From Methylacidimicrobium sp. AP8 (GTDB lineage Bacteria; Verrucomicrobiota; Verrucomicrobiia; Methylacidiphilales; Methylacidiphilaceae): a stretch of DNA of 64,000 nucleotides. Position numbers and translations under genes: made by a program. The notes beneath the pieces were generated by a model. It was not told where the DNA came from, did no database searches, and saw only the letters and a list, made by a program, of their open reading frames with translations. The stretch's first letter is position 1. Every line of letters starts with the position of its first letter. Below, piece after piece: positions 24,610 to 48,914 of this stretch. The DNA lies in assembly GCF_903064525.1 (NCBI RefSeq), contig NZ_LR797830.1, forward strand, positions 1,302,001 to 1,366,000, given 5' to 3'.

Positions 24610-24682
<73 letters not shown>

Positions 24683-24704
24683 CACCCCCTCAAAAGGAGA
24701 GCGC

Positions 24705-28254: not shown

Positions 28255-28502
28255 TGTCCTGTATTGTAATTGGAATAACATACGGTCAGCAGGGCTTCCC
28301 ATGCGCGGTAGATCTTTTCTAAGGTCTTCTGCGCATCCGCATGCCAGCGATAAGGCCGAGGATTCCCATTGCGTTCGCCGATCCAGCGGGTGATGTCTGC
28401 CACGAGAGCGGGAACGCTGCGAAAGCTTCCGCGAACGATGACTTGGCTGGTTAATTCGGCGAAGAAACGTTCGACCATGTTCAGCCAGGATGAGGATGTC
28501 GG
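28255..28502 (-). pseudogene. IS630 transposase 3' fragment
   Basis: It encodes SSSWLNMVERFFAELT followed by IGERNGNPRPYRWHADAQ and ends near YSNYNTGH, typical of the end of IS630-family transposases (the Glu of the DDE triad is in MVERFF). The upstream part is missing, cut by the IS1634 left end at about 28503. Confidence 0.8.
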
Positions 28503-30401
28503 CCCATGTTTGGGGGAAGGTCTTGTAAGTCGTTGCGAGACAGTACCCGTCATTTCCAATTGGCACTACAGGGGCTATTTTTGCCCTTTGCGGTCGGCTA
28601 CGGCTCCCGGGCAGAGATGCGTAAGGCGGAGAGGATTTGCCGGGCCTGATGATTCCCGGCGGTGACCCCGCGACGTTTTTCGCTTCCGAAGGAGAAGTCC
28701 ACCAGATGGATGGTTCGGAGGGCAACCCAAGCTTGCTCGCTGGAGAAGGGTAGATTGGCCGCCTTGAGCTTCTTCTCCAGGAGCCGGTCGAGCAGGAAGG
28801 CTAAGGCGGCGACGAAGACGTGCGCCCGCACCCGTTGGGGATTGTGGTGGTAGATCGGAAGAAGCTCGAGCACGTCCTTGAGCTTCCGGAAGGCTCTTTC
28901 CACCTCGGAGAGCTCCTTGTAGGCCCGGACCGCCTCAAGCGGGGAGAGATCCTTTTCCTCGGTGAGGATCACGTACTCCCCTCCAGAAGCTTTTCGGTCT
29001 CCACCGGCTCTTCGGACACTTGGAGCTTGCCTGCCCGCAGACTCCAGCGGAAGTAGCGGTGGCCGCGATGGAGAGAGAGGATTCGGGCGACGGAGCTGCC
29101 GATCTCTTCCCGATTCCGAAGCTCTCCTTTTTCGATACGCTTGGCGAGTTTGCCCAACTCTTCCCGGGTCTTCGTGACATCCCTCTCCCGCATGGCCTGC
29201 TCGTAGGCCAGCCGCTCGGCGCTTTCGACCACGAAGATCCGCTGCCCGGGAAGCGCTCCCTCGACTTCGCAGACCCGATCCTTTTCCTCCGGAGAGCAGG
29301 GCTGCCAGGAACCGCTCTGGGCCTTGCGGACATACTCCAAGACCTCCGGGCTCCTTCGTCGGCGTAAGCCGAACAAAAACCCATGCCCCTGGCTCCACAG
29401 GAAGCCCAAGTTGGCCGTGCTCACCATCCCCCGGTCCCCGACGAAGACGATCCGACGCAACCCGAAGCGTTTCTCCAAATCGGCGACGATCGGCAGAACT
29501 GTTTCCGAATCGTGCCGATTGCCCCGGAAGACATGGTGGGCAATCGGCCAGCCATTGGCCATGACGACCCCCAAGAGGATCTGCCGGTTTCCCTCCCGCT
29601 GATCCCGGCTGTAGCCGTATTGAGCCAAACCCTCGGGGCCTTCCCCTTCGAAATAGGAGGAAGTCAAATCATAGAAGACCATCTCGGGCTTAAGAGAAAA
29701 GAGATCCCGCAGCCGGGCAAAGAGCCCTTCCTAGGGTCCGCTCCTTCCGCCCTATGAGCTCGTCAAGGGTCCGGTACCACGGCCAAAGGAAGCGGTGGTC
29801 GACCCGAACTCGGCCATTCTGCTTCCAGACCGGCCGGATCCGCTCTCCTCTCCCGTCGGGAACGTAGTCGGTCTCCAGCCACTGGGCCAAGGCGTGTTCG
29901 CTCCCCGGGGACAAGAGCCGGTTGACCACAAGGACGAACGCCCGTTCCGCAAGGGACAGTCCTTTGCCTTTCCCCCTCTTCTCCTCCAAGAGCTCTTCCA
30001 TACCCAGCTCCTTCCAGAGATGTCTGGCGACAAGCGTTGGACCCCAAACTGTGGATTCCTGAGGCTCAAGCGCTCTCCGAGAAGCCGGCGCGCTCCGCCC
30101 GAGCAACTCCGCGAGCCGATCCAAGTGGGGTGCCAAGAGATCCTTGCGGCCAAGAGTCGCGACAATCCGCTGCTTGACCTTTCCCTTTTCCCGGTAGCTT
30201 TCCACCAAGCGGACATACTCCGCCTCGCTCCCGTCCTTCCGACGCAACCGCAGGGTGCGCAGAAACAGGAAATAGCATTACCGGTCGTCACCGTGAATCG
30301 CAAGCACAAAAGGCCACTTTCATGCGGACTACATTTTTGCAAAATTTCCTTCCCCAACCCTGGAGCCGTCGTCAAAAAGGCCGCTTTTCACCAAACATGG
30401 G
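28503..30401. mobile_element. IS1634-family (IS4-like) insertion sequence
   Basis: The ends are CCCATGTTTGGGGGAA (28503) and, inverted, TTTTCACCAAACATGGG (ending 30401). It encodes one transposase on the minus strand, broken into three frames. The right end abuts the first, truncated CRISPR repeat with no spacer between, so this insertion or a later deletion removed the leader-distal end of the array. Confidence 0.8.
28598..30247 (-). pseudogene. IS1634 transposase in three frames
   Basis: The parts, from the N-terminus, are MRRKDGSEAEYVRLVESYRE to LDELIGRKERTLG (30247-29690), MVFYDLTSSYFEGEG to VSEEPVETEKLLEG (29682 to ~28975), and EYVILTEEKDLSPLEAV to the end (to 28598). Catalytic-region blocks YDLTSSYFEG, VFVGDRGMVS and YKELSEVERAFRKLKD survive. 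Two frameshifts are needed to join them, so the copy is probably inactive. Confidence 0.82.
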
Positions 30402-31312
30402 CCGAGGCGCGAACGCCTCGGATACGTGGTCGTAGAGCGGACTCAGAAACAGCCTGCGTTTGGCTGCGCTTCAATGAGGCCGAGGCGCGAACGCCTCGGA
30501 TACATCGCCAGGACCTGGGCCGAAATCGGCCAGCTAACGCTTCAATGAGGCCGAGGCGCGAACGCCTCGGATACACGAAGGACGACTCCACAAAAAAGGA
30601 CACCCTAAAGGCGGCTTCAATGAGGCCGAGGCGCGAACGCCTCGGATACCATCGAGTTCTTGAACCTCGCTTCGCTCCTGGAGAGCTTCAATGAGGCCGA
30701 GGCGCGAACGCCTCGGATACCCGGACGGGATGTGAAATCCCGGTCCCGGACTCCAGTAAGCTTCAATGAGGCCGAGGCGCGAACGCCTCGGATACCGGGA
30801 GAAGCGTCGTGGTCGATACTACTATCATCTCGCGCTTCAATGAGGCCGAGGCGCGAACGCCTCGGATACCCGCCGACATACAGTGAGATGAAACTCGCCA
30901 AAATCCCGCTTCAATGAGGCCGAGGCGCGAACGCCTCGGATACCCCCCCTCCGGCTGATAGCGTTTCTATCGCTACAATGAGCTTCAATGAGGCCGAGGC
31001 GCGAACGCCTCGGATACGTTCAGCGACAAGAAGCGTTGCACTCCTGGATGCGCGGGCTTCAATGAGGCCGAGGCGCGAACGCCTCGGATACAGGCTGGCC
31101 GACCTGCAATCACGTATAGAGTGGTGGGGCTTCAATGAGGCCGAGGCGCGAACGCCTCGGATACCTGGGGAGAAAGTGGTAGGCCACTTCGCGCCGGGCG
31201 ATAGCTTCAATGAGGCCGAGGCGCGAACGCCTCGGATACCGGTCGCATATTTCCCGTCCTGGTCGCCCCCGAAATAGCTTCAATGAGGCCGAGGCGCGAA
31301 CGCCTCGGATAC
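30402..31312 (-). CRISPR. CRISPR array, 13 repeats / 12 spacers
   Basis: The 36-nt repeat begins GCTTCAATGAGG, continues with the palindrome CCGAGGCG-CGAA-CGCCTCGG and ends ATAC. Repeat starts are 30402 (24 nt only), 30468, 30539, 30614, 30685, 30760, 30834, 30908, 30982, 31056, 31129, 31204 and 31277. Spacers are 35-42 nt. Read on the minus strand, the repeat ends in ATTGAAGC, the usual 8-nt crRNA handle form, and its hairpin has a TTCG loop. Transcription therefore runs right to left, with cas2 and the leader on the right. The left-most repeat lacks 12 nt and touches the IS1634 end. All full repeats appear identical. Confidence 0.97.
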
Positions 31313-31580: not shown

Positions 31581-31874
31581 TTAAATGATAGTGGCGCGCC
31601 GTTCGACTTTCGAGAACGTTTTTCCGATGCTCTCGATGGCAAGCTCGATTTTCTCCGCCGGCCCGACATCAATCAGAAGGACGTGATCTTCGCCGTTCTT
31701 GACCAGTTGGCGCAGTCGCGTCTCGAGCTCGGCGCGGCGCCGCTGCGACAGACGGCATTGGAAAACGGAGAGCTGGATCCATTCTCCGTACCCGTGCACG
31801 GCTTTGAACACCTGCCGCCAGCGCTTCGGATTGGAGATGTCGTAGGTGACGATGAAGAGGCGTTCGTCGGCCAT
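31581..31874 (-). CDS. cas2: CRISPR integration protein Cas2
   Basis: A 97-residue Cas2 with the ferredoxin-fold opening FIVTYDISNPKRWRQVFK (Asp12 in the YDI position) and IQLSVFQCRLS. The ATG at 31874 lies eight bases after the cas4-cas1 stop. Cas2 bridges two Cas1 dimers during spacer integration. It directly precedes the leader. Confidence 0.95.
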   Translation of the reverse strand: MADERLFIVTYDISNPKRWRQVFKAVHGYGEWIQLSVFQCRLSQRRRAELETRLRQLVKNGEDHVLLIDVGPAEKIELAIESIGKTFSKVERRATII

Positions 31875-31882
31875 CGGAGCCT

Positions 31883-33607
31883 TTATCGGGGTAAATAGTG
31901 AGGATAGGCCGGCAGTTCTCCCAGGAGAAATCGGGAGAGCAGCCGTGCCTGAATCAGGAGCATGCGGCGCATGCTCCCCGGATAACCGAAGACCGGATGC
32001 GTGGTTTTTTGAGAAAGACGGCGCTCGAAGGCCTCGACAAAGCGACGGCGTCCCGCTTGCGTCAGCGCAGTCCCGGTAATCCCCACGACGAAATCCTTCG
32101 GCCCGACCTCGCCGGTGTTTACCGCCGAGAGCACGACCGAATCGGCAAGGATCGGACGAAACGGTTCGATGAGGTCGAGGGCCAGCGCCGGACGGCCGTA
32201 CCGGGGCGAATGGTAGAAGCCCCGATAGGGATCGAGGCCGACCGATGCCAATGCGATCGTCAAATGCCTGGTGAGCATCGCATAGGCGAGCGAGAGCATG
32301 GCGTTGACCGGATCGGTCGGCGGCCGCCGGTTCCGGGCCTCGAAATGGAACGGCCGCATTCCGGAGACGCCTCCCCCCTCGGGCGGTTGCAACAAACCGG
32401 AAAAGGCTCGGAAATAAATGGCGGCCGCGTCTCCTTCGACTCCGAGGAGCTGCGCCTTTGTTGACGCCCGCTCCGCCGATTGGCGTGCGGCTCCTAAGCG
32501 ATCGAGCGCTACCTGCCGTTCCTCCGGAAGCCCCCGCCAATTCCGGCGGAGGATCGTTCTCTGATTCATGACCTTTGCGGCGACCAGCTGCTTGGCGAAG
32601 CGGAGGCAGGCGGCCTCGTCAAAGCTCATCCGGTATTGCGCCGTGCGGACCTCCACATTCCGGTGGCCGATGCCGTGGGCGATGCCGCGAAACCAGCCGC
32701 CGTGGCTGTGAAACGTGACCGGGATGTCGCGTTCGAGCAGGGCAGAGAGCGCCGGGGTCGTGATCGAAACGTTGCCGAAGAGCGCCACATCCGAAATGTC
32801 GATCAAGCGCACCTGCGTTTCCCCTTTCCCCTCATCGGTAATCTTGAGGGTTTCGCCTTCCTTGGCGATGCGGGCGTGCTGGGATTGGACGATCAGCGGC
32901 AGCGCCTCATCGGGCGGGACGGCGATCGTTCGCGGGGCGAGCGAGGAGCCGCAGAGCGAGTGAACCTCGTCCGGCAAGCATACCGTCACAAGCGCGCAGC
33001 GCGGACATTTCGGGCTGTCCCGGAGGGGTGGGGGGATCCGCCCCTGACCAACGGTTAGCCGGAGCTCGCTGACCGCGGCTCGCGTTGCGGCGCGCAAGGC
33101 TTCATCGAAGAGGACCCGTACCCGTTCGCGGCTTTCGGCATAATAGATTGCACCTTCCTCTACTCGGTAGCCGTGCTCCTCGAGGAGCAGCCCTTGGAGG
33201 CAGAGTTGAATCCGTTCGGGCTCATAAGCTCCCTGGGGAACATGGGGCCGCTTGCCGCGCTTGTAATCGATGGGGGTCACGACCCCATCCTGGGCCTCCG
33301 CCACGTCGAGCTTGGCGATCACTCCCAGGGCCACCGAGGAGAGGGTCAGGGAACGGGTGCGGACCTCTTCTCCGGTTTCCACCGCCTCCGGCGCGGGAAG
33401 CGGAGCGGCCGGCGTGTCGGTGCGCACGTGGATGCGGCTTCCCTCAACCGTCTCGGCCGTTTCCACCCACTCGCCTTGCGTCCACATGAGGTAGGCAAGC
33501 CGGGGGCAGTAGACGAACTCGTTCACCATCCGCGCCGGAATGAGCGGGGTGTCGCCGCCGAGCGGCGGGGCCGGCAGAGGGAGCTCGAGTTGGTCATCGG
33601 TCGACAT
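31883..33607 (-). CDS. cas4-cas1: Cas4-Cas1 fusion protein
   Basis: A 574-residue fusion. The Cas4 part (residues ~1-215) has the RecB-like IDYKRGKRP motif and four Cys for an Fe-S cluster (NEFVYCPRLAY, then CPRCALVTVC). The Cas1 part shows FGNVSITTPAL, GFYHSPRYGRPALALDLIEPFRP (His and Glu metal ligands) and AVNTGEVGPKDF. Such fusions are typical of type I-G (formerly I-U) loci, where Cas4 trims prespacers and reads the PAM. ATG 33607 gives MSTDDQLELPLP. The start overlaps the upstream csb2-like fragment by 14 bases. Confidence 0.93.
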   Translation of the reverse strand: MSTDDQLELPLPAPPLGGDTPLIPARMVNEFVYCPRLAYLMWTQGEWVETAETVEGSRIHVRTDTPAAPLPAPEAVETGEEVRTRSLTLSSVALGVIAKLDVAEAQDGVVTPIDYKRGKRPHVPQGAYEPERIQLCLQGLLLEEHGYRVEEGAIYYAESRERVRVLFDEALRAATRAAVSELRLTVGQGRIPPPLRDSPKCPRCALVTVCLPDEVHSLCGSSLAPRTIAVPPDEALPLIVQSQHARIAKEGETLKITDEGKGETQVRLIDISDVALFGNVSITTPALSALLERDIPVTFHSHGGWFRGIAHGIGHRNVEVRTAQYRMSFDEAACLRFAKQLVAAKVMNQRTILRRNWRGLPEERQVALDRLGAARQSAERASTKAQLLGVEGDAAAIYFRAFSGLLQPPEGGGVSGMRPFHFEARNRRPPTDPVNAMLSLAYAMLTRHLTIALASVGLDPYRGFYHSPRYGRPALALDLIEPFRPILADSVVLSAVNTGEVGPKDFVVGITGTALTQAGRRRFVEAFERRLSQKTTHPVFGYPGSMRRMLLIQARLLSRFLLGELPAYPHYLPR

Positions 33608-33824
33608 GCCCATCCTCGTTGGTGGCCGCGAAGAGGCCGCTGCCCATATGGTTACCGCAACCGAGGAGGAGAGGGCCTTCCACGGCAACGGCGAACGCGA
33701 GGCGGAGCCGCGCACGGAGGCCGCCGCGGGGACCGATGTGGTGGTGGCCGCTGCGATTCCCGATCTCTCTCACAGCCATCGGATGATCCTCCGCCATAAG
33801 CGCTTCTAACTCAAGGAGAAACAC
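33594..33824 (-). pseudogene. Probable 3' remnant of a Csb2-like (Cas5/Cas6) gene
   Basis: The frame (76 codons from 33824, or 67 from 33797) contains LRLAFAVAVEGPLLLGCGNHMGSGLF. This parallels the C-terminus of the intact Csb2 in this window (IRFAQPIEGPVILGAGRFLGLGLF). No N-terminal part is recognisable. It overlaps the cas4-cas1 start, the position csb2 occupies in Geobacter-type I-G loci. It could still be translated as a short peptide. The homology is a by-eye alignment of about 26 residues. Confidence 0.6.
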
Positions 33825-34519
33825 TGCGCTGGGTCGCTTGCTGCCGTGACACCCATCCCATTGGCGCAGTCGTTCCGAAGCCCAAAATAGGAGGACAACT
33901 TCAGCTGTCGCCGGGCGATCCGTTCCCTATGTCACTCGACATGGATTGCTTGGCGCCTTGTTTGCCTGCCGAGTGAAGCAAGGGCGGTGTCTGTGAACAC
34001 CTTCCCAAGCTCCTGCGCCGCCATCCATCGGATACGCTACGGCCTTCCGCCCGGTCCAAGGGAACCGATCGATCGTCTTTTTGACCCGGTCTTCTCGGAA
34101 GCGGAGGCCGCCTCTGAAAAAACCGAAAACTCCGCCTTCTCCCGCTTGTTTCGCTGGCACCGGCCTGGACCGCCATCTCTCCAGCACCGGAAAAAAGTGT
34201 AATCCTTGCTCATCTCTGCGCTGCGCTGGCGCTCCGGGGTATATTCCTAATGGCCAGCAACGAGGGGTGCACTACCGACGAGGTGTATCCGATCTCGCCC
34301 GAGCCACTGGCAATGGCAGTCCGAAGGGAATGCCCGGGTGCAGGGCGCCCCGCGAGCCTCTCCTCCTTCCGCTGGATGCCGGTTGTGCCTGTACCCATGG
34401 AGGATATGATCTGATGGTGCAAGCCGGATTTCGTGCCCCGGAGTTCCCTTGGTGGTGGAGTCGGTTCTCTTTGGTCGAATTGGAAAGGTTCCCTTCCCCG
34501 CCCAGTTCCCGGCAAGGAC
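33825..34519. other. 695-base stretch between the csb2-like remnant and the type III module
   Basis: No intact gene is supported. Both strands carry short frames with unremarkable composition. It may contain decayed sequence from an older cas operon or from an unidentified mobile element, but no transposase motif or terminal repeat was seen. Confidence 0.4.
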
Positions 34520-35422
34520 CTACGAAGGATCGGCACGTTTCTCGGCTCTCGCCATCCGAAGCATCCCAGTCGGCTGCAGGTTCCACGCGGGTATGTCCGC
34601 ATCACCGGTCCATCGTGAGCCGGGCATCCAGACAGGACCGCTGATCCGGGGATCACACTGTCCTTTAGCCATGTCCCATCCCCCGATGGCTTCCTGGTTG
34701 CCAGAGAGATCGGCTTCCGTGTCGTGCGCATGTGCCGGCAGGTACTCGGCGACAACACGAGGCTCATCCTGATCTAGCTCCACCTCCATCCCGAAAAATG
34801 TCGCGGCTGGCTCCATGGACTCCCGCTCCAGTCGTCCAAGCCCGTAGCGGGTGTCCCCACCGACAAACAACCTTGCTATCGGGCGGATGCGTTCCTCCGG
34901 GCCCGATTCCTTGAAAAGGATATAGCCGGCCATCGCGACCGGCTCGACCGGCGCGGTCTGCGAATCGTCGCCTTGTCGCCAGAAAGGCTGGACGCACTCC
35001 GTCTCACGCAAGGACCCTTCCCGTGCGGAATCGCTGTCAGGGACGATGGCAGTACCGGATCGCGCCCAAAGGAGACGACGACGGAAGCGTCTGTCCGAAA
35101 TGCGATGGGCGTCATTATCCTCGCGAACCCAGCAGAGGCCCTCCCCCTCCCGATATTGCGGAAGCCAGGCGCACCAGCCGCCGTGGATGACCTCTGCTGG
35201 ATATAGGTAAGAGAGGCGCGTATGGTCCCGAATCATCTCCCCAATCCCAGCGTAATCCGGGTCGCCGGATGCTTCCTGGCGCGCCAACTCGGCGGTGAGA
35301 GCGCCCCAAAGCGGCCGGGCTGGCACATAGAGCCGACACCGATTCAGGGCGCCAGATGGCGTCGAGCCGACAAAAAGTGGACTCGCCACGCGCCAGACCC
35401 ACCGGCATAGGTTCCAACTCAT
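34520..35422 (-). CDS. RAMP-fold protein of the type III module (Cas5/Cmr3-like?)
   Basis: A 300-residue protein. The N-terminus (WRVASPLFVGSTPSGALNRCRLYVPARPLWGALTAEL, near residues 9-46) and the Gly-rich FVGGDTRYGLGRLE (near 189) fit RAMP-superfamily proteins of type III complexes. By elimination it could hold the Cas5/Cmr3 position, which no other gene fills, but direct similarity to Cmr3 was not recognised. ATG 35422 is two bases after the cmr5 stop, so it belongs to the same operon. It is the last gene before the spacer region and cas4-cas1. Confidence 0.65.
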   Translation of the reverse strand: MSWNLCRWVWRVASPLFVGSTPSGALNRCRLYVPARPLWGALTAELARQEASGDPDYAGIGEMIRDHTRLSYLYPAEVIHGGWCAWLPQYREGEGLCWVREDNDAHRISDRRFRRRLLWARSGTAIVPDSDSAREGSLRETECVQPFWRQGDDSQTAPVEPVAMAGYILFKESGPEERIRPIARLFVGGDTRYGLGRLERESMEPAATFFGMEVELDQDEPRVVAEYLPAHAHDTEADLSGNQEAIGGWDMAKGQCDPRISGPVWMPGSRWTGDADIPAWNLQPTGMLRMARAEKRADPS

Positions 35423-35424
35423 TC

Positions 35425-35772
35425 CTAGCTTCTGGCGTTACTTCGTGCTTTGGCCTGATAGCGGCCGTAAACGAGCGCTTGGCGCAAGAGGTCACGGGCC
35501 AGCAGAAGCCGATCGATGTCCTTGGCAAGACCTCGGACGCCGGATAAGGGGTCGGCCGGGTCGATTGCGCTGCCGACTTGAGCCTTCAAGAACGACGAGC
35601 AGCTCTCGATGAGGGCCTTCCGATCGTCCTTCTGTTGGAGGTAAAGGAAGAACGCGTAGAGGCCCTGCTCTTCGAGAACGGAGAGAGCATCGGTGAGTAT
35701 CTTGTCGTTAGCCTGCTGCGAAAGCTTCGAGCCGAGTCTCGCACACTCCATGTCCAGATTGATCGCCATCAC
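35425..35772 (-). CDS. Type III small subunit, Cmr5-like
   Basis: A 115-residue all-helical protein with QQANDKILTDALSVLEEQGLYAFFLYL and a conserved-looking LARDLLRQALVYGRYQAKAR end. Size, helicity and position between cmr4 and a RAMP gene fit Cmr5/Cas11, which lines the RNA-bound groove of the complex. Starts GTG 35772 and ATG 35769 are adjacent and overlap the cmr4 stop. Sequence similarity to named Cmr5 proteins is weak. Confidence 0.68.
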   Translation of the reverse strand: MMAINLDMECARLGSKLSQQANDKILTDALSVLEEQGLYAFFLYLQQKDDRKALIESCSSFLKAQVGSAIDPADPLSGVRGLAKDIDRLLLARDLLRQALVYGRYQAKARSNARS

Positions 35773-36767
35773 TTTTCCTCCGGCGATGCGCTCCGGGCGT
35801 TCGGCTTCTCGGACTTGAGCACGCGAAGGCGTCCCATGCCCCGGGTACCCATGCCGCCGATTCCCAGCGCCTCCATGTAGGGGAATCCCTCCTCTACGAC
35901 CTTGTAAACGCCATCAGGACTGTCGACTTTGGCAATGTTTTCCCCATTGATCTTGAAGTGATGGGGACTCTTGCAGGTGACCTCCCAGAAAAGCACCGTG
36001 CCGCGGGGCAAGGCCTCGTAGGTAAAAAGCGCTCCTTCCTCGGCCGCGCCCGTCGCCGGATCGATCGCGACCGATGTACGCACTTCAAGGTTGCTGTTGA
36101 CGACGTGGGGAAAAAGCTTGTCGGAGACGAGGCCGAGACGCTCCAGGATATAGGGGGGAACGCCCATCGCTTGCAACTTCTCTTTTACGGTCTCCATCTG
36201 GCCGTGTTCGACGACCGGGAGCAGGAGCCATCCCAAGTTCAACTTGTCCGCCGCGGCAGCGCGGTTAACGGCATCCTCACGGACATCCATCACATTCTGG
36301 AGGCCCGCCAGCCATCGGAGCGCGAGCGGCGCGGTAATCCAGACCGGTCCTTCGCAAGTCGCGACCGGAAAGAGCAGCACATGCGCATCGCTAAACGCGG
36401 CCAGCCCCGCGAACCCGCCGCGTTCCCCGCGCGCGAAGCCGAAGACCGTGCAAACGGGGCAGGTGAATTGGCCACAGTGCCCCCCGGAACCATCCGGGCG
36501 GGGTTGACCTTGACCCGCGCAGTCCGGGAAGTAGGGTTTCTCTCGGCTATCGATCCGCCGATTGCCCTCCGTGGCTTGCTTACGCATGGCGACATAGCTG
36601 CGCAGCACGCCCGCCAAGCTTGAGCCGGGGATCTTCGGCACCTTTGTAACGGGATCGCGGACGATGGCGTTGTCGACACGTCCCAGCCGCGTTCCGCCGG
36701 TGCCCACATGGATCGGATCGACCGCCAGGGCGGCCGTAGGGTATGTCTGAAAGCTCGGGTTCGTCAT
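35769..36767 (-). CDS. cmr4: Type III backbone RAMP Cmr4 (Cas7)
   Basis: A 332-residue RAMP. VDPIHVGTGGTRLGRVDNAI shows the conserved Asp that in Cmr4 cleaves target RNA every six nucleotides. VPKIPGSSLAGVLRSYVAM and the CTVFG motif follow, and a Gly-rich EALGIGGMGTRGMGRL lies near the C-terminus. It forms the crRNA-binding filament. It overlaps cas10 upstream (ATGA) and the Cmr5-like gene downstream. Confidence 0.88.
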   Translation of the reverse strand: MTNPSFQTYPTAALAVDPIHVGTGGTRLGRVDNAIVRDPVTKVPKIPGSSLAGVLRSYVAMRKQATEGNRRIDSREKPYFPDCAGQGQPRPDGSGGHCGQFTCPVCTVFGFARGERGGFAGLAAFSDAHVLLFPVATCEGPVWITAPLALRWLAGLQNVMDVREDAVNRAAAADKLNLGWLLLPVVEHGQMETVKEKLQAMGVPPYILERLGLVSDKLFPHVVNSNLEVRTSVAIDPATGAAEEGALFTYEALPRGTVLFWEVTCKSPHHFKINGENIAKVDSPDGVYKVVEEGFPYMEALGIGGMGTRGMGRLRVLKSEKPNARSASPEEK

Positions 36768-39700
36768 CGCCTTACCTCCACTGACTCTTTAAGCGCTCTC
36801 AGATGCCAATCAAGAGTGAGCTCCAAAATTCCGGAGGCGGCCGCATCCACGAGCGTTTCCAAAACGGCCCCCTCCACTTCTAGGCATTGCGCGAGGACCG
36901 GACGGGCGAGTTCCACCCATGCGCGGCGGGTTTCTGCGGGATCGGCAGCCGGTCCGTCCCAATCCTCCCTTACCTCCACCAGGATGCTCCAGGCTCTCCG
37001 CAACGCGGTGATGCTCGGGGCTTCCCGCCGGAGGAGGGACCAGATACTGCGCAGCCGTTTCCAGTCCGAGAGATAACGCGGGCGGACAGGCTCGAACCGG
37101 CCGGCTGTGCTCTCGAGGAAGAGGAGCGCGAACCGGGCGGGCGCAATCTGAATCCGATCTCCCAAGGCCAGGTCCGCCACATGGCGGTAGACGATTCCTT
37201 TGGGCGTCGCGAAATCGCGCGGCTGCCGCAGCTTGCCGTCGGCAACCTCCAGGTAAGGATAGAAGACATCCGCCCGTCCATCGGGCAGACAAGCCGGAAC
37301 GACCGCCAGTTCTTGCTCGCCGTCCGGTCGAGCGAGGCTTAGTGCGGTCATCCCGCCGCGGGAGACTGTCTCGACGACCCGCCACGCTTCTTTCTTCTCC
37401 TGAATCGGCGCATGCACCGCATCCTCGACATTGCGCGCCGCCTCGACCACCGCCTGGAATGGAGTCCTGCGCGCAAAGGCCACCGCGCTCACGCGCAGCG
37501 GCATCCGGCCCCAGACGCGCGAGAACTCCTGCTCCCACTTCTCCACGGCGGCCTCGATGCAGGCATTGACCGCGCTCAGCGGCAAAAGGATGCGAAAGCG
37601 CTCGGGGTCTTGTTCCAGGACGAGGATGGGGGCATAGGACCCCAGTCCGGGGGCGGTCTTTGCCGAAGCGATTTGGAGCGTTCGCGCTTTTCCGTCATCC
37701 CCGGCCACCTCGATCGGTTGGTCGATGAGGAGATCCTCGCTCTCCTCTTGCCCAAGCAGGCGGGAGAGGTTGCAGATCGTCACGAAATCCCTCCTCGCCG
37801 AACGGTAAAGGACCTCAAACGGAGCGCCGCGAAAGGACCCGAGATAGGTTTGCCGGTCTTCCCATCCCGCTTGATCCGGATCATTGACATTGACGGTGAG
37901 CGCCAAACGTCGGGTGCGCCATCGATTGGGAGCCGCCGAGGCGATCTCCCGGAAGCGGGGCAAGAGCTGATCGAAGAATCTCTGGGTGGTCCGCCAAAAG
38001 CGGTAGATTCGCCCCGGGGAAGCGTTCTTCCGGAAGAGCTGGTGGGCCAGCCAGTGGGCCCGGTCTTTTTCGGTGAGAGAATCCCATGACGGTGCGTCGG
38101 ATCGGTCCTCGACAATCTTTTGAAAGAAGGCCTGGATGTCGTCTTCCCACGAAAACCCCTCATTGAGGGAGGCCAAAAGGGGATTGTCCAGCTTACCCGA
38201 CCGTTTTCCGCTGCGAACCGTGACTGGATTTCTTACGAAGCGCTCGATTTCCTCGACGATCGAATCGTGAGGCCGGTGGATATCGACGGGATTATCGGTT
38301 CCATTGAGGGTCGGGTTGTGCCGCCGCCACTCCCTAACGTTTTGCGTGCGCAAGCAATCGATTTGCGAACCATCGAGCCACGGGCCGAGGTCGAAGCTTA
38401 ACGTAAGCAGGGCGAGCCGGTCGTTTTCGTCCGCTACTTCGGAAATCCAGATCGTCTCGTTGCCGGAAGCGAGCCAAGAGTCGAGCCGTCCCTTGCGGCG
38501 CTCGCTGCACACCCGACATGCGCGCTGCTTGGAGAGGTTCGCATGCCTCTCCTCCGGCCCACCGTTGAACCGAACTTGGCAAACCGGGCAGACGTGCCCC
38601 TGGCCTTCGTCTGTCTGCGGGATCGACCATGAGCGGTGCATGGGAACGGCGAGCGTCTGCCGAGCCCCTCGCAGCTCTGCGGTCATAGGGATAAGGGACC
38701 GAGTGGATGTGGAGAGGCGGCAGAGCGGGGGCGTTTCGAAGCTACGGTCTTTTGCGAGCTCATCGATCTCCTTTTCGAGCTCCTGGCGCAAGGTCTCGGC
38801 ACTCGAATCATCGAGGCTGCCCCTCGGGGCTGCGCTGTCGACCTCATCGAAGCGCAGGCCGGGAAAGGTGAAGACCAAGAGTTGGTTGTCCCGGAAGACC
38901 AGCGAGCCGATGGCGAGGTCAACCTCGATGAGGCGCCGGATATCCTCAAAGAAGGCCTCGATCTGCCGCCGAGCCCCGGCCCAGTCTCCGATCCGCACGG
39001 CGCGAGCCTCGTAATGGTCCGTGCCGAAGCCTACGGTGAGCACGCGCCAGCGGGTCTGGGACTTTAGCGATTCCCAGCTCGGGTTTTGCGAGAGCAGGCT
39101 CCCCGCGACGGCCGACTTGAACAGCGCGGCGGCGACATAGGACTGGTCCCAGAGCGTGACGTCGTTGTTGGGTAGCCTGGTCTCGGCGAGCGTGGCCATG
39201 AAGGCCTGACGCAACCAGCCTTCCGGCCCGATCGCCTCCTGCCGCCAGCGCCACCAAGGTTCTAGATCCGATGGAGGAGAGTCGCCGAGTTCTGACAAAC
39301 CGTCCAGCAGCGCGCCTATCCGCGCAGTTAGCCCTGCCCATCCATTTTGCGTGAGAACTTCCGGAGGATCGGAAAGCAGGTTGCGGATCGGGTGACCGAA
39401 GGGCGAGGCAAGCCACATATGCGTGGCGTCCTGGCCGAGATACTTGGAGGGCTGCGTAGGCAAGTTCTTCTCGACCCCGGAGGCCATTGCATGCCCGGCT
39501 TGAAGGAATCCGACGAGGGTGTTCTTGGAATCTCGGTTATCGTATTCCTGAAGGAACTCGAGAAATGTGCTCGGCCACCGCTGAGTGGTGAATCGGGAAC
39601 GGAGCCAGCCAAGGCGCGTGCTCCAGTCCGGGTCAAGACTCTGATGCCAATTCTTTTCGTCATAAAGCACGCCCGTCGAGCCATGTCGGCGCAAAAAGTC

Positions 39701-39811
39701 GGGGTGCGCCTTGCCGGTCATGTGCAGCCAGCCGATGGCCTCGCAGGCAAGAAGCAGCGGGCGGTGTTCCCGGAGCTTCCCAAGGCACTCTTGACCGGCT
39801 AAGCTGGTCAT
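36764..39811 (-). CDS. cas10: Cas10-family large subunit with degenerate HD and palm motifs
   Basis: A 1015-residue protein starting MTSLAGQECLGKL (ATG 39811, overlapping the cmr6-like stop). The HD-like N-terminus reads AIGWLHMTGKAHPDFL: His30 is followed by Met31, so the HD dyad is gone. The palm strand expected to carry GGDD reads LVFRDNQLLVFTFPG (near residue 308), and no GGDD occurs anywhere. A zinc finger is intact (CPVC near 407, CRVC near 435). The layout resembles Csx11/III-C type Cas10 proteins with an inactive cyclase. It should scaffold the complex without making cyclic oligoadenylate. The C-terminal ~500 residues lack recognisable motifs. Confidence 0.85.
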   Translation of the reverse strand: MTSLAGQECLGKLREHRPLLLACEAIGWLHMTGKAHPDFLRRHGSTGVLYDEKNWHQSLDPDWSTRLGWLRSRFTTQRWPSTFLEFLQEYDNRDSKNTLVGFLQAGHAMASGVEKNLPTQPSKYLGQDATHMWLASPFGHPIRNLLSDPPEVLTQNGWAGLTARIGALLDGLSELGDSPPSDLEPWWRWRQEAIGPEGWLRQAFMATLAETRLPNNDVTLWDQSYVAAALFKSAVAGSLLSQNPSWESLKSQTRWRVLTVGFGTDHYEARAVRIGDWAGARRQIEAFFEDIRRLIEVDLAIGSLVFRDNQLLVFTFPGLRFDEVDSAAPRGSLDDSSAETLRQELEKEIDELAKDRSFETPPLCRLSTSTRSLIPMTAELRGARQTLAVPMHRSWSIPQTDEGQGHVCPVCQVRFNGGPEERHANLSKQRACRVCSERRKGRLDSWLASGNETIWISEVADENDRLALLTLSFDLGPWLDGSQIDCLRTQNVREWRRHNPTLNGTDNPVDIHRPHDSIVEEIERFVRNPVTVRSGKRSGKLDNPLLASLNEGFSWEDDIQAFFQKIVEDRSDAPSWDSLTEKDRAHWLAHQLFRKNASPGRIYRFWRTTQRFFDQLLPRFREIASAAPNRWRTRRLALTVNVNDPDQAGWEDRQTYLGSFRGAPFEVLYRSARRDFVTICNLSRLLGQEESEDLLIDQPIEVAGDDGKARTLQIASAKTAPGLGSYAPILVLEQDPERFRILLPLSAVNACIEAAVEKWEQEFSRVWGRMPLRVSAVAFARRTPFQAVVEAARNVEDAVHAPIQEKKEAWRVVETVSRGGMTALSLARPDGEQELAVVPACLPDGRADVFYPYLEVADGKLRQPRDFATPKGIVYRHVADLALGDRIQIAPARFALLFLESTAGRFEPVRPRYLSDWKRLRSIWSLLRREAPSITALRRAWSILVEVREDWDGPAADPAETRRAWVELARPVLAQCLEVEGAVLETLVDAAASGILELTLDWHLRALKESVEVRR

Positions 39812-40710
39812 TGTTTCCCCTTCCCCTCGCCGAGAAGCTTCGCAAGCAAGGTTTTTGCCTCTGCGAGAGTTTTCGCCTCCTTCCAACCAGAGCCCTTTGT
39901 GCACAGTTTCCGGGCTTGGATCCCCGCGACTCCCCAGCCCGCCGTCCGCTTGGCCGAGAACCCGTATCGGGTCAGCAGCTTTTCGAGCGCCGGGAGGAGA
40001 CGATCAAGGACTTCGGTGGGCACCACGCCCTGGCGCCGGGCTTGGCCCGGCATCGGCGCATAAAGCAGAGAGAGTGTCCCGGAGGTAGAAGCCGGCACGA
40101 CCTCGTAGAGGATGGGCTGGGTGCCTGCTCGCCGCGCTCGATCATGGGGATTGATGACCTCGAAGCCGATTTTGTTGAACCAGGTCGGAAAGCAGTGGAG
40201 AGCTCCTCGTGAGAAGATTTCATCCTCTTCCTTCCCGTTGCCAAAGAGATGGAGGATCCAGCTTGGCTCCTTCCAGCCATCGAGCCCGCCCTCATGCTCG
40301 GCTAGATGCTCGAGCAGGCCATCTTCCATCCGGCAGGCCCAGCGCAGTAGGCCCTTCCAGCTTGCCGCCGACATGAAAGGGAGATCGAAGACTCGATCCT
40401 TCCGCACCGGATTGTCGCGCACATGAAAGGGACGGTCGTCCTTGGAATACCAGGGCGTCCGGAGTTTGAAGACGACCTCAATCGCCAGCCAGCCGGCAAG
40501 GAGCGGCTTGGGCCGTTCGCTGTGATCGAGCAGATCCGGCAAATTGAGGTCCAGCTTTTCCACTTGCCTCTGGTAATGCCTTCGAGCTCTGTTGCGGTCG
40601 CAGGTGGACCAGGAGAGGAATGCCTCGCCGAATCGGCTGACTAGATCCGCCGCGGCTGAAGCGGATCGCTTGGCGCTTTTTTCTGCTAAATGGGCGTGAA
40701 GGTCAAACAT
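39808..40710 (-). CDS. Type III RAMP, Cmr6-like
   Basis: A 300-residue Cas7-type RAMP. The central LRTPWYSKDDRPFHV and PFMSAASWKGLLRWACRM resemble the G-S-S-x-K-G-x-x-R assembly motif, and TRYGFSAKRTAGWGVAG is a Gly-rich C-terminal loop. Next to Cmr1 and Cas10, Cmr6 is the likely role, capping the filament. It overlaps cmr1 by one base and cas10 by four. The exact subunit name is inferred from order and size. Confidence 0.75.
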   Translation of the reverse strand: MFDLHAHLAEKSAKRSASAAADLVSRFGEAFLSWSTCDRNRARRHYQRQVEKLDLNLPDLLDHSERPKPLLAGWLAIEVVFKLRTPWYSKDDRPFHVRDNPVRKDRVFDLPFMSAASWKGLLRWACRMEDGLLEHLAEHEGGLDGWKEPSWILHLFGNGKEEDEIFSRGALHCFPTWFNKIGFEVINPHDRARRAGTQPILYEVVPASTSGTLSLLYAPMPGQARRQGVVPTEVLDRLLPALEKLLTRYGFSAKRTAGWGVAGIQARKLCTKGSGWKEAKTLAEAKTLLAKLLGEGKGKQ

Positions 40711-41651
40711 CAGGAAGCGGCTCCGCTGAGAAGCTCCTTTAGGATCGCCTTGCCTTCTTTTACCTCGTGGTCCGCGAGATCACTCCATGCGCACTTCAAC
40801 TTGGTTTTCATCGTATCAAAGGTGACATCCTTGCCGTTCACAAAACCGAAGGTTCGTGCCGGATCCTTGAAGCTGAACACCTTCTTGCTTTCGGCGTCCA
40901 CTTTGTGGGCTCGATCCGGTCGGCGTCCGGCGATCCACGAATCGTTCCCGCTGCTTTGTCGCTTCGGCTGAGGGCGTCCGATCAGATGGTTAAACGAGCT
41001 GAAGCTTTCGTTCTGTCGGGCCAAGTACTTTCCGTTCACGCACCAGAAGTTCGCAAGCGAGGCCCAGGCAAAGCCGGCTTGGTTGACTCTCCGCCAGCAC
41101 GGACGGGCGGCATAGTCCTCGAGCATTTGAACGGAAAAGGATTGGATGTCGGAGGGGCGGCGCTCGATTTGGATCAGGCCGTAGTCCTTATGGTGTGGCT
41201 CGTTCTGCCGGTTCTGCTCGTCGGAAGGCTTCAGGACGGTCTTGCCCCCAATCGCCCCGTAGTCGGCGATCAAGCGGAGTGTTAGGTCGAGCAGCGCCCA
41301 TTCTTTCGGCTGAATCGGCCGGAGCGGCATGAAGGAGAAGCGGAAGGAATTGTCCTTTTTGATCTGCTGGGGCATGTCATGCTGGTCCAGCACGTCGAAG
41401 CGAAACTTCCGCGCCCAGCCGGTGCAGCCGAAGAATTCACAGGTGGGGCACCGCCGGCCCGAATCATCCGGACAGGAGCCGGGACCCGAAGGGTCGCACA
41501 CCATCCCGCCGAGGCCGCGGACCACCACTTCGAACCACCAGCGGATCGAGCCCAGCAGCCCGGTAGTCACCAGACGATCGGGTTTCCCGCGGCAATCGCC
41601 CGTCCATAGATCGGAGCGAGCCTTGAGCTCGTAAATGACGGAAGAACGCAT
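40710..41651 (-). CDS. cmr1: Type III RAMP Cmr1
   Basis: A 313-residue RAMP with VTTGLLGSIRWWFEVVVRGLGG near residue 29, the Cmr1 signature for an LRWWxR-type helix. A CPTCEFFGCTGWARKFRF Cys-containing segment and a C-terminal ARTFGFVNGKDV region follow. Cmr1 sits at the 3' end of the crRNA in the effector. It is the first gene of the minus-strand type III operon and diverges from csb1 across a 253-base gap. Confidence 0.86.
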   Translation of the reverse strand: MRSSVIYELKARSDLWTGDCRGKPDRLVTTGLLGSIRWWFEVVVRGLGGMVCDPSGPGSCPDDSGRRCPTCEFFGCTGWARKFRFDVLDQHDMPQQIKKDNSFRFSFMPLRPIQPKEWALLDLTLRLIADYGAIGGKTVLKPSDEQNRQNEPHHKDYGLIQIERRPSDIQSFSVQMLEDYAARPCWRRVNQAGFAWASLANFWCVNGKYLARQNESFSSFNHLIGRPQPKRQSSGNDSWIAGRRPDRAHKVDAESKKVFSFKDPARTFGFVNGKDVTFDTMKTKLKCAWSDLADHEVKEGKAILKELLSGAAS

Positions 41652-41904: not shown

Positions 41905-43152
41905 ATGGATATCACTGAAGTTAGCCGCATGGTCGCCGAAGACGCCGCCTTGCGGCGCAGGCAGAAGCTCCAGCCGATGGGCGGCAAGGGCGACAAGATC
42001 TTCCCGCCGACCTATCCGGGAGAAGGGCGCAACGCTCCACCCCGGCATGTCTATGAGCTCCGCCGCCTGAATGGCCAGGATGTCTGGTGCGTCCTTATTG
42101 ACAGCGTGCAATCCCAAGCAAACCGGCTGGAGGAGTGCCTGCTCCAAGCGATCCGGGACGGCCTGCCGATTCCGTACGTGGTTGTGGATTTCAGCGAAGC
42201 CAAGCTCGACGGCATCACCCGGATCACCTCGCTCGACGCCCCGCATCGCGTTTATGACGCCATTCTGCGCGACAGCCTTCTGAATGGCGAGCCATTCATG
42301 AACAGCGACACGGGGAAACGCCTCGCCAAGGCCAAGGCGGAGGACGCCTCGGCACTTCTGGAAGTCTCGCCTACCGCTCTCCTGTTCGGCGCCTGGCATT
42401 CGACCGGAGAAGGCGGCGGGCTCGGCGCTAAGTTTGCGCGTTGCCTCGTCTCGGAAATTGTGGGCATCGGTGTGCCGGTGGAAGAGGTCGTGAACCAGGG
42501 AAGCGGCGAGAAAAGCATCCGAACGGCGGGCCGCCGCACCGGCAGCCGGATCGATCCCTTGGGTGTGCTGAGAAAAATCGATGTGTTCAAGGGCGCGAAT
42601 GGTTGGAGTACGACCCAGGCCGACGCCGGCCGGGGAGCGAAGAAAGTCCGGCCGTCCGAAATCAATCATGGCAACATCGCCCCTTCGATCCAGCCCCTTG
42701 GCGTGACCTGCGATTATGCGGAGCAGAGCTTCGTGTTGAGCTTTGCCTCACTGCGTCGGCTGCACTTCGGCGGAAGCAAAAAAGACGCAGCGGGACGCGG
42801 CTTGCTTGCTGCGCTCGGGCTTGTCGCGCTTGCCGAACAGGACGCACGCGGCTATGCGCTGCGGTCCCGATGCGATCTCGTCTGCGACGGCCGGGCGCCG
42901 TTGGAGCTGGTGCGTCCGGACGGTAGAACAGAGGAGATCTCGATCGACCGCGAGACGGCCCGCACGCTCTATCGAGAGGCTTTTAAGACAGCGCAAGAGG
43001 CCGGCTTCCACTTGTCGGCCACTCCACTTCGCCTCACACCCCAGGGCAAGCTTGTGGAGATTGTCCGCAAAAGCCAGGAACTGGCCCTTGCGGGCGCAGG
43101 TGGTGAAGCCGAGGAAGGAGCAGCCACCGATGAGTCTGGTCCTAGAAATTGA
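41905..43152 (+). CDS. csb1: Type I-G Cas7 (Csb1/GSU0053 family)
   Basis: A 415-residue Csb1. Family features include IFPPTYPGEGRNAPPRHVYE, VWCVLIDSVQSQANRLEE, SPTALLFGAWHSTGEGGGLGAKFAR and KKVRPSEINHGNIAPSI. It forms the Cas7 filament along the crRNA in type I-G Cascade. It starts the plus-strand effector operon and overlaps csb2 by 23 bases. Confidence 0.94.
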   Translation: MDITEVSRMVAEDAALRRRQKLQPMGGKGDKIFPPTYPGEGRNAPPRHVYELRRLNGQDVWCVLIDSVQSQANRLEECLLQAIRDGLPIPYVVVDFSEAKLDGITRITSLDAPHRVYDAILRDSLLNGEPFMNSDTGKRLAKAKAEDASALLEVSPTALLFGAWHSTGEGGGLGAKFARCLVSEIVGIGVPVEEVVNQGSGEKSIRTAGRRTGSRIDPLGVLRKIDVFKGANGWSTTQADAGRGAKKVRPSEINHGNIAPSIQPLGVTCDYAEQSFVLSFASLRRLHFGGSKKDAAGRGLLAALGLVALAEQDARGYALRSRCDLVCDGRAPLELVRPDGRTEEISIDRETARTLYREAFKTAQEAGFHLSATPLRLTPQGKLVEIVRKSQELALAGAGGEAEEGAATDESGPRN

Positions 43153-44686
43153 GTATCTTTCCGGCGTCTGCTTCGCAGCGATCGGCCCTGACAGTCCGAC
43201 GCCCGATTGGCCGCCGCAGCCCGATCGCATCTTTTCCGCTCTCGTCGCCACATGGGCTGCGCGGGGGCAGGACAAAGGGGAAGCGAAGGCGCTCGAATGG
43301 TTGGAGAAGCTCGACCCGCCGCACGTTCTTGCGTCTAGCGCTGAGCCACGCACGGCGCCGCCAGTGTACGTGCCTCCCAATGACTACGAAACGCCTGACG
43401 GTGAATTGAGCACCCTTATCTGGTACCGGGATTTCATATCGAAAGGCCTTCGACCACGGAAGGAACATCAAAAATCTTGGCGGCGGGCATGGAATGTCCT
43501 GCCGGACGAGAGAAAGCGCTCGGGACTTAAGGAAAGAAGTTTTCCCGCATCGCGTCCACACAAGCCCATTGTGCAACTATTCTGGGCAACGGCAGACCCG
43601 GAAGACGAAGTGATTGCTGCGTTGCAGCGGCTGGCGAGCGACACCGCCTATGTCGGCCATTCGGCAAGCCTCACGCGTTGCCGCTTTCTGCTCGACCCCG
43701 ATGCGCCTGAGCCGAACGAAGCCAAGTTGCCGGAACGCCGTGTCTATGCCGGACGTTTTGCTGAACTCCGCCGGACCTTCGAGGAAGGGCGAAGACCGCT
43801 TCCCGGCGCGCGCGTTGTGTCCGTAATGGAGGCAAAGCCGCATCGTGCCAGTCTCTTCGGCAAACACTGGCTACTCCTCGAGCATGTCGCGGGCCGGATG
43901 CCGGACCTGCGGGCTTGCGCCTTCCTGGCCAAGACCGCGCGGGATGCGCTGCTTAGCGGCTATCAACGAATCGGCCTTGGAAAGGAAATCCCGGAAGTAA
44001 TCAGCGGCCATGCCGCAGACGGGAATCCCACGCGCGCGCCGCATCTGGCCATCATTCCCTTGTCCTTCACGGGCTTTCCTTATGCGGATGGCCATGTGCT
44101 GGGCTTTGCGCTTGTCCCGCCGCGCGACAGCAGGATCCTGGAGGATGAGAGCTTTCGCAAGGTGCTAAGAACGCTTGCGCCGATGGATGAAACGCGCGGG
44201 CGGCGGGTCTTGACGCTCAGGACCAAAGAAGGGACGCCCTCCGGCCGGGCCTTTTCCATCGGCCTTTCTCCGACCTTCGAGCCGCCCGCAGGCAAACGCT
44301 CCCTCGACCCGGCGTGGTACACCCGCCCGTCGCAAAGCTTCGCCTCGGTCACGCCCATCGCCGCCGACCGGCATCTAAAGGAGGAAGGGGAGGCACGGCT
44401 GGAGGAACTCGCGGCGCAGATCGCCAGCGCCTGCCGCAACATCAATCTGCCCGAGCCGGAAGCGATCGTCACCGACAACCATTCGGCCATAGAGGGGGCG
44501 CCTCCGGCCTATCCATCGGGGAAATCGCCGGCCTGGATGCGATGGGGTCTGCCCCGATCGCTGGCCAGTCGTCCACTCACCCATGCGGTCATCCGCTTCG
44601 CTCAGCCCATCGAAGGTCCGGTGATTCTCGGAGCGGGACGTTTCCTGGGACTGGGGCTCTTCCGTCCTCTCGATCCGGAGGAATGA
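43130..44686 (+). CDS. csb2: Type I-G Cas5-Cas6 fusion (Csb2/GSU0054 family)
   Basis: A 518-residue protein starting SLVLEIEYLSGVCFA. YLSG and PPQPDRIFSALVATWA near residues 30-48 mark the Csb2 family, and the C-terminus ends with IEGPVILGAGRFLGLGLF. The Cas6-like half should cleave pre-crRNA at the repeat hairpin and the Cas5-like half caps the crRNA 5' end. No other cas6 is present, so it probably processes crRNAs for both effectors (inference). It overlaps cas3 by ATGA. Confidence 0.92.
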   Translation: MSLVLEIEYLSGVCFAAIGPDSPTPDWPPQPDRIFSALVATWAARGQDKGEAKALEWLEKLDPPHVLASSAEPRTAPPVYVPPNDYETPDGELSTLIWYRDFISKGLRPRKEHQKSWRRAWNVLPDERKRSGLKERSFPASRPHKPIVQLFWATADPEDEVIAALQRLASDTAYVGHSASLTRCRFLLDPDAPEPNEAKLPERRVYAGRFAELRRTFEEGRRPLPGARVVSVMEAKPHRASLFGKHWLLLEHVAGRMPDLRACAFLAKTARDALLSGYQRIGLGKEIPEVISGHAADGNPTRAPHLAIIPLSFTGFPYADGHVLGFALVPPRDSRILEDESFRKVLRTLAPMDETRGRRVLTLRTKEGTPSGRAFSIGLSPTFEPPAGKRSLDPAWYTRPSQSFASVTPIAADRHLKEEGEARLEELAAQIASACRNINLPEPEAIVTDNHSAIEGAPPAYPSGKSPAWMRWGLPRSLASRPLTHAVIRFAQPIEGPVILGAGRFLGLGLFRPLDPEE

Positions 44687-47643: not shown

Positions 47644-47654
47644 GAGAAGTGCGA

Positions 47655-48641
47655 ATGACTGCTGACACCTCCCACCGGCTTGACGGTCTGGAGCCGGACA
47701 ATCTTCTGGCCTTCCTGGCCCTCCTCGGGCTTTTGCGGGCACTGCAGGCTGCCGATAGCACGTTATCTCCCCGCGCCGCCTGGGACATCCACACCCCGCC
47801 CTTAAGGCCCAGGCTCATTCTGGCACGCGCCCTCACGCAGGAAGAAGTGACCGAAAGCGCGGTCAACGGCGTCAATGCGCTTTCGGTCAGCTATGGCTTC
47901 GGAAACCGGAAAGACTTGAACTATTCGCGGGAAGAGTGCCGCGCGCTTCTGGAGCAGGAAGCCAGAGCTGCCCGTTTCGATGCGCGGGAACGTGCCGATC
48001 TGTTAGCGGCCTTGATGAGCGACGCCGCCGCCAAATCGGACAACGAAGAACTCATCGATCCGACGCCGCTCTGCCTGCTGCTCTCCCAGGGTCATCAGCA
48101 TTTTCTGGAACGACTGGCCAGGGTGCCGCGGGAGTTGGCGCCGCCTCTGCGCCGGAGGGGGAGAAGGACTGTTCGATTGTCCGCCTCCAAATGCTTGGGC
48201 GAAACCCTGTTTGCGCCTTGGCGTCGCAACGACCCGACCTCGTGTTCTTCCTTCCGTTGGGATCCGGAAGAAGATGTTCGCTATGCCCTGATGGCGGGCG
48301 ATCCCACACAATCGGCATACAAGAAGGGTACCCAGCTTGGCGCCAACTGCCTCGCCGTGCTCGGTCTTGCAGGGCTCACTCTCGTTCCGGAAACCCGAGC
48401 CGGCCGCGTGCGTCCCAATATTGTTGGGGGCATACCCGGAGCGGACGGATTTTCCTTCGCTTGGCCGATCTGGCGTGACCCGGCGACGTATGCTGCGATC
48501 CGCGCGTTGCTCGCCCATCCCCATCTGCTCACGCCCGGCGCGCTCGCCCACCTTGGAGTCGACCACGTGATGGTCGCCCGGCGCATCTTCGTCGCCCGGT
48601 ACTGGAATTTTTCCCGCGCTCGGCCCTTGTCGTCCCCGTAG
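47655..48641 (+). CDS. Type I-G small Cas8 (Cas8g2/Csb3-like)
   Basis: A 328-residue protein with LDGLEPDNLLAFLALLGLLRAL near the start, a Cas8-like N-terminal pattern. A RPNIVGGIPGADGFSFAWPIW segment and a C-terminal HLGVDHVMVARRIF follow. Size and place after cas3 match the shorter I-G large-subunit variant (GSU0052-like); the ~700-residue Csx17 is absent. It likely recognises the PAM and contacts Cas3. It starts 11 bases after cas3. Confidence 0.8.
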   Translation: MTADTSHRLDGLEPDNLLAFLALLGLLRALQAADSTLSPRAAWDIHTPPLRPRLILARALTQEEVTESAVNGVNALSVSYGFGNRKDLNYSREECRALLEQEARAARFDARERADLLAALMSDAAAKSDNEELIDPTPLCLLLSQGHQHFLERLARVPRELAPPLRRRGRRTVRLSASKCLGETLFAPWRRNDPTSCSSFRWDPEEDVRYALMAGDPTQSAYKKGTQLGANCLAVLGLAGLTLVPETRAGRVRPNIVGGIPGADGFSFAWPIWRDPATYAAIRALLAHPHLLTPGALAHLGVDHVMVARRIFVARYWNFSRARPLSSP

Positions 48642-48878: not shown

Positions 48879-48914
48879 GCTTCAATGAGGCCGAGGCGCG
48901 AACGCCTCGGATAC
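48879..48914 (-). repeat. Orphan CRISPR repeat on the far side of the cas block
   Basis: A single full 36-nt copy identical to the array repeat, in the same orientation, 238 bases after cas8. No second repeat was found within 150 bases either side. The sequence just to its left could be one remaining spacer plus unrelated DNA. An ISL3 element begins close to its right, so a former second array may have been deleted. Confidence 0.93.

Follow-up and report, generated by a model that had tools for sequence, protein, structure and literature searches.

In CRISPR systems of type I-G, csb2 is a fusion of Cas5 and Cas6. Csb2 is the processing enzyme of the type, and its C-terminal domain holds the catalytic histidine that cleaves the crRNA, numbered H503 in the enzyme described (PMC9638904). 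Swapping of effectors in situ by a conserved adaptation module has already been described (PMC12669027), as has the shuffling of modules (PMC6452270). In the present study we analysed a 64,000-nucleotide stretch of the genome of Methylacidimicrobium sp. AP8 (hereafter the window), in which a small frame directly before a cas4–cas1 fusion proved to be a genuine trace left by a lost CRISPR effector, a broken-off csb2 tail fused to a decayed transposon gene. The features around this junction are as follows.

31883 to 33607, minus strand: type I-G cas4–cas1 fusion (alphaproteobacterial loci reach 84% identity)
33594 to 33824, minus strand: 76-codon open reading frame, overlapping the cas4–cas1 start (ATG at 33607) by 14 bases
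33594 to 33607, minus strand: the 14 nt shared by the csb2 stop and the cas4–cas1 start, the same in locus L049
33594 to 33740, minus strand: csb2 3′ stub of class A, last 48 codons (profile matches and alignments; stop codon at 33594–33596)
33741 to 33824, minus strand: 5′ part of the 76-codon frame, without csb2 similarity, antisense to the istB relic
33734 to 33941, plus strand: decayed 3′ end of an IS21-family istB with its right terminus (..TCGACA), by DNA match
33945 to 34193: block that matches G012, another genome of the family, at two places (68–69% identity)

The initial annotation had claimed that the frame aligns with the Csb2 C-terminus and overlaps the cas4–cas1 start by 14 bases, and both statements were borne out. 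Comparison with the profiles of the Csb2 families gave matches to the Csb2 end only: residues 27–67 of the frame matched TIGR02165 (Csb2) at profile positions 450–491 of 492 (E 9.4e-6), with a score of 25.1 bits that is below the full-length cut-off of 45 bits, as expected for a fragment, and five PADLOC Cas56g/Cas5g models matched at E values of 5e-7 to 7e-5, all at their C-terminal end. In an unbiased six-frame search of the whole genome, the stub was one of three csb2 places (E 7.1e-5). Alignment with the best class A csb2 tails gave z values of 15–21 against shuffles, where classes A–D are working labels of this analysis for the I-G effector types in related Cas4–Cas1 loci. The segment HIGPRGGLRARLRLAFAVAVEGPLLLGCGNHMGSGLF aligned to the Csb2 of L049 (Rhodobacteraceae) with 26 of 38 residues identical (68% over 38 amino acids), and a frameshift-permitting alignment stopped at 33740. 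The whole 76-codon frame had been taken as csb2; this holds for 33594–33740 but not for its first 28 codons (33741–33824), which run antisense to istB. The stub holds the motif GCGNHMGSGLF, which includes a histidine. Pfam and PDB sequence searches with this very short piece returned no match, and frameshift-aware and six-frame searches upstream of it found no further csb2 relics. Given the profile E values and the place of the stub directly before cas4–cas1, chance is a poor explanation of the csb2 match. Of the Cas5-like plus Cas6-like domains of a full-length protein only 48 residues are present, out of roughly 730 codons, and the stub cannot be a working Csb2.

Class A loci have the order cas3-cas8-cas7-csb2 (about 730 aa) followed by cas4/1 and are intact in alphaproteobacteria; in class B the order is cas7-csb2-cas3-cas8, followed by cas4/1 or divergent from it; in class C a shorter csb2 adjoins cas4/1, and class D also occurs among the related loci. 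The best matches of the stub were all class A tails (L049, L045, L035, L040, L052, L031 and L037) and class B tails, the window's own included, scored below them; the stub belongs to class A and not to the plus-strand I-G operon of the window, which is of class B. In agreement with the earlier statement that csb2 lies just upstream of cas4–cas1 in Geobacter-type I-G loci, csb2 directly abuts or overlaps cas4–cas1 in the intact loci L049, L035, L031, L025 and others, and the uninterrupted csb2–cas4/1 order was present in about ten related loci, in the congener G003 and on an annotated Cereibacter plasmid. DNA similarity to the window crosses the csb2/cas4–cas1 junction in L049 and L035, and in L036 for the last 45 nt. 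The class A tail nearest to the stub is that of L049, but the nearest relatives of the window cas4–cas1 are other loci; the csb2 tail and the adaptation module may therefore lack a single history. The intact locus of G003 was ruled out as a direct ancestor, as it occupies another chromosomal site and another place in the Cas4–Cas1 tree, and its csb2 tail is also less similar to the stub. Downstream of its intact I-G effector, the G003 cas4–cas1 (L057 7623–9358) carries a frameshift, so that the adaptation module of this congener may be inactive. The class A csb2 itself (about 730 aa; L031 5779–7968) has two glycine-rich RAMP-like loops, each of which aligns with the class B csb2 end, which suggests that it carries an extra internal domain.

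At the other side of the stub, the last csb2-like position is 33740, and the match to istB begins at 33734. The region 33734–33941 matches an istB 3′ end in the same genome (G000:236117), scoring 55 where dinucleotide shuffles score 21.2 ± 2.1, and a second, independent istB copy in the congener G006 gave a score of 42 with the same terminal TCGACA; both copies are themselves incomplete. The relic was identified by this DNA-level match, Pfam having failed to recognize the decayed istB frame in the window, and the match covers only about 208 bp, short of a complete IS21 element with istA and two ends. Other IS21-family relics are present in this genome and in the genus. The csb2 tail is thus joined to the interior of istB, with the right end of istB facing away from csb2; the junction is one of deletion or recombination and not of simple insertion. 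A scan for promoters in the gap found nothing. One of the two G012 matches to the approximately 250 bp block at 33945–34193 is near a contig start.

The wider neighbourhood of the stub comprises an adaptation module and two effector operons.

24610 to 24683: tRNA-Gly
24684 to 53545: island between tRNA-Gly and a conserved block (synteny comparison with the congeners G003 and G002)
30397 to 31312, minus strand: CRISPR array of 36-nt repeats (CRISPR-DR16), outermost copy degenerate
31581 to 31874, minus strand: cas2, 80–90% identical to cas2 of the closest related loci
34520 to 35422, minus strand: cmr3, type III-C (PADLOC profile match)
35425 to 35772, minus strand: cmr5 (PADLOC profile match)
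35769 to 36767, minus strand: cmr4 (profile matches)
36764 to 39904, minus strand: Csx11/Cas10c, III-C large subunit, without GGDD motif (profile matches)
39808 to 40710, minus strand: cmr6 (PADLOC profile match)
40710 to 41651, minus strand: cmr1 (profile matches)
41905 to 43152, plus strand: cas7 (csb1), type I-G class B
43136 to 44686, plus strand: csb2, class B, full length
44674 to 47643, plus strand: cas3, type I-G class B
47652 to 48641, plus strand: cas8g, class B
48879 to 48914, minus strand (array orientation): orphan CRISPR repeat, single and intact, beyond the class B operon

The adaptation module consists of a Cas4g–Cas1g fusion (NF049935, 754 bits), cas2 and an array of the I-G repeat type, with the same kind of repeat in its relatives; Cas4–Cas1 relatives at up to 84% identity come from alphaproteobacteria and from some MAGs with other labels. 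A minus-strand I-G operon with cas3, cas8g, cas7 and csb2 upstream of cas4–cas1 is absent: the csb2 tail alone stands there, and then come the type III-C genes. The second I-G operon previously recognized on the plus strand is indeed present and has a different effector, of class B. The minus-strand operon upstream of cas4–cas1 has a Csx11-type Cas10 with Cmr1, 3, 4, 5 and 6 and is of type III-C; its Cas10 without GGDD accords with the inactivated III-C cyclase described previously (PMC12669027). Since Csb2 is the I-G processing enzyme and no cas6 was seen in the III-C operon, the class B csb2 would be a natural candidate supplier of crRNAs for both effectors, and we infer that the two operons probably share the array of the adaptation module. 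The entire cas block lies between directly oriented CRISPR repeats (the array at 30397–31312 and the repeat at 48879–48914), and a transposase gene begins approximately 30 bp past the orphan repeat.

Except for a 2.1 kb match in G002 and some IS-like stretches, the region 24684–53545 was unmatched in the syntenic intervals of G003 and G002, and the CRISPR block therefore lies on an island. As this block is absent from these intervals of the two congeners, the loss of the class A effector may predate the arrival here of the island or of the adaptation module. The corresponding intervals are about 28 kb in G003 and about 45 kb in G002, and their contents differ. A tblastn analysis covering the window plus two further loci from this genome detected no other class A genes, the matches being the stub, class B genes and cas4–cas1, and cas7g turned up just once in the genome; the 48 codons stand alone, with no second class A gene to corroborate a full operon. 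At about 434 kb (G000:C1; L053 8054–10718) there is a second class B csb2–cas3 fragment, 95% identical to that of the window, in which the 5′ part of csb2 is missing and cas3 is cut where a copy of the window IS (28501–30411) begins. The genome also has a second cas4–cas1 fusion (L054 5439–7142; G000:C1:1415429-1417129), 38% identical and accompanied by cas2 and an array whose repeats are unrelated, and two further cas1 places near 771 and 780 kb.

On a Cas4–Cas1 tree of 28 labelled rows, three of the loci being from one MAG, the minimum number of effector-class changes was 13, and shuffling of the labels gave 12.5 ± 1.1; with the two stub rows and an unclear one excluded, the corresponding figures were 12 and 11.75. 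The count is at the level of shuffled labels and, within this 28-row sample, effector class is therefore unrelated to Cas4–Cas1 ancestry. The fossil and the tree together indicate that I-G adaptation modules exchange effector classes frequently enough to leave no link with Cas4–Cas1 ancestry among these loci. The window Cas4–Cas1 falls inside a clade made up mainly of alphaproteobacterial loci (support 98/95). In L027, at about 1480–1537, roughly the last 12 codons of a cas8g (GKFMNFARARPI) stand directly before cas4–cas1. This 3′ stub, whose DNA is 92% identical to the intact L046 gene across 36 bp, is a second, independent case of an effector tail left behind. It is tempting to regard such effector 3′ stubs before cas4–cas1 (the csb2 tail here, the cas8 tail in L027) as a recurrent, selected scar, each swap leaving a short coding tail because cas4–cas1 translation starts inside the last effector gene. 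We find this generalization decidedly doubtful; if true, past effectors could be read from the adaptation module.

Taken together, our results are probably explained by a stub that is a non-functional class A csb2 fossil, its effector having been lost through a rearrangement that fused the tail to istB. A class A csb2 would once have been located directly upstream of this cas4–cas1–cas2–array module. The rearrangement would have removed the rest of the effector and joined the csb2 tail to the interior of an IS21-family istB gene, whose 3′ end and right terminus are all that is left. We infer this order of events. Because cas4–cas1 translation starts inside the csb2 tail, a viable deletion probably had to stop short of the csb2/cas4–cas1 junction, which would be why the tail was retained. 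The adaptation module is now accompanied by two other effectors, the divergent class B I-G operon and the III-C operon, and both probably use its array.

The initial annotation had an older I-G effector deleted or overwritten by the type III genes. Replacement of an older effector is well supported, but the role given to the type III genes is not. If the III-C operon had taken the place of the class A effector by recombining into the locus, so that csb2 and the upstream genes were removed and the tail was left, its present same-strand position upstream of cas4–cas1 would be accounted for; a Csx11 match was found in this genome only among 13 of its family, and the III-C operon is therefore probably a recent arrival. 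However, the csb2 breakpoint joins the istB fragment, and approximately 580 bp of other sequence separate this relic from cmr3. Moreover, in L033 and L034 a class B operon is divergent from cas4/1 without type III genes between them, and the layout can therefore be explained without invoking the type III module. On the Thermus plasmid that carries the closest III-C relative found, no I-G genes are annotated in the 32 kb read around it. Searches for type III-C in a sample of alphaproteobacteria and in genomes with the same module, run without a positive control, found none. We regard replacement by the III-C operon as unlikely.

A full class A operon may also never have existed in this lineage, the cas4–cas1–cas2–array module having been captured as a fragment already ending inside csb2 and having then joined the class B and III-C operons on the island. 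We consider this a serious possibility, if somewhat less than an even one: the window holds no further class A relic, a single cas7g was found in the genome, Cas4–Cas1 is nested among mostly alphaproteobacterial loci, and two congeners lack the block in the syntenic interval. However, full deletion of a resident operon would look identical, and the other IS21 relics of the genome and genus favour formation of the junction in this host or a relative of it. Capture of a fragment is compatible with loss by rearrangement, merely shifting the loss to a donor. It is very unlikely that the frame is instead a functional small protein, or a translational coupler of cas4–cas1, under selection; it is open and its stop overlaps the cas4–cas1 start as in L049, but no stand-alone homologue was found among the loci examined, where the related frames all end a longer csb2, and 28 of its codons are antisense to the IS relic. 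There is a negligible probability that the stub arose by duplication from the end of the class B csb2 in the window. Both are csb2 ends, and the fragment at 434 kb is a further class B csb2–cas3 piece; the stub, however, matches the class B tail at 12 of 24 residues compared with 26 of 38 for the class A tail of L049, and this closer match to class A tails ruled out such an origin.

For the class A operon lost, in the preferred explanation, through the istB junction, plasmid p.C of Cereibacter sphaeroides provides the order implied by the stub, an intact cas3u-cas8-cas7u-cas5u6u-cas4/1-cas2. It differs from the window in that the locus is intact and in that its Cas4–Cas1 is only 54% identical to that of the window. 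The stub has in common with Csb2 (TIGR02165) the C-terminal sequence, the glycine-rich loop and the place immediately upstream of cas4–cas1, but keeps just 48 of the roughly 730 codons. The scar is an ordinary example of known CRISPR module swapping, and also a readable molecular fossil of effector exchange in which the breakpoint and the likely agent, an IS21 element, are preserved. As in the systems described for in situ shuffling (PMC12669027, PMC6452270), a conserved cas4–cas1–cas2 is paired with changing effectors; unlike them, the window has a readable 3′ stub, an IS21 relic at the breakpoint and a III-C operon that is also present.
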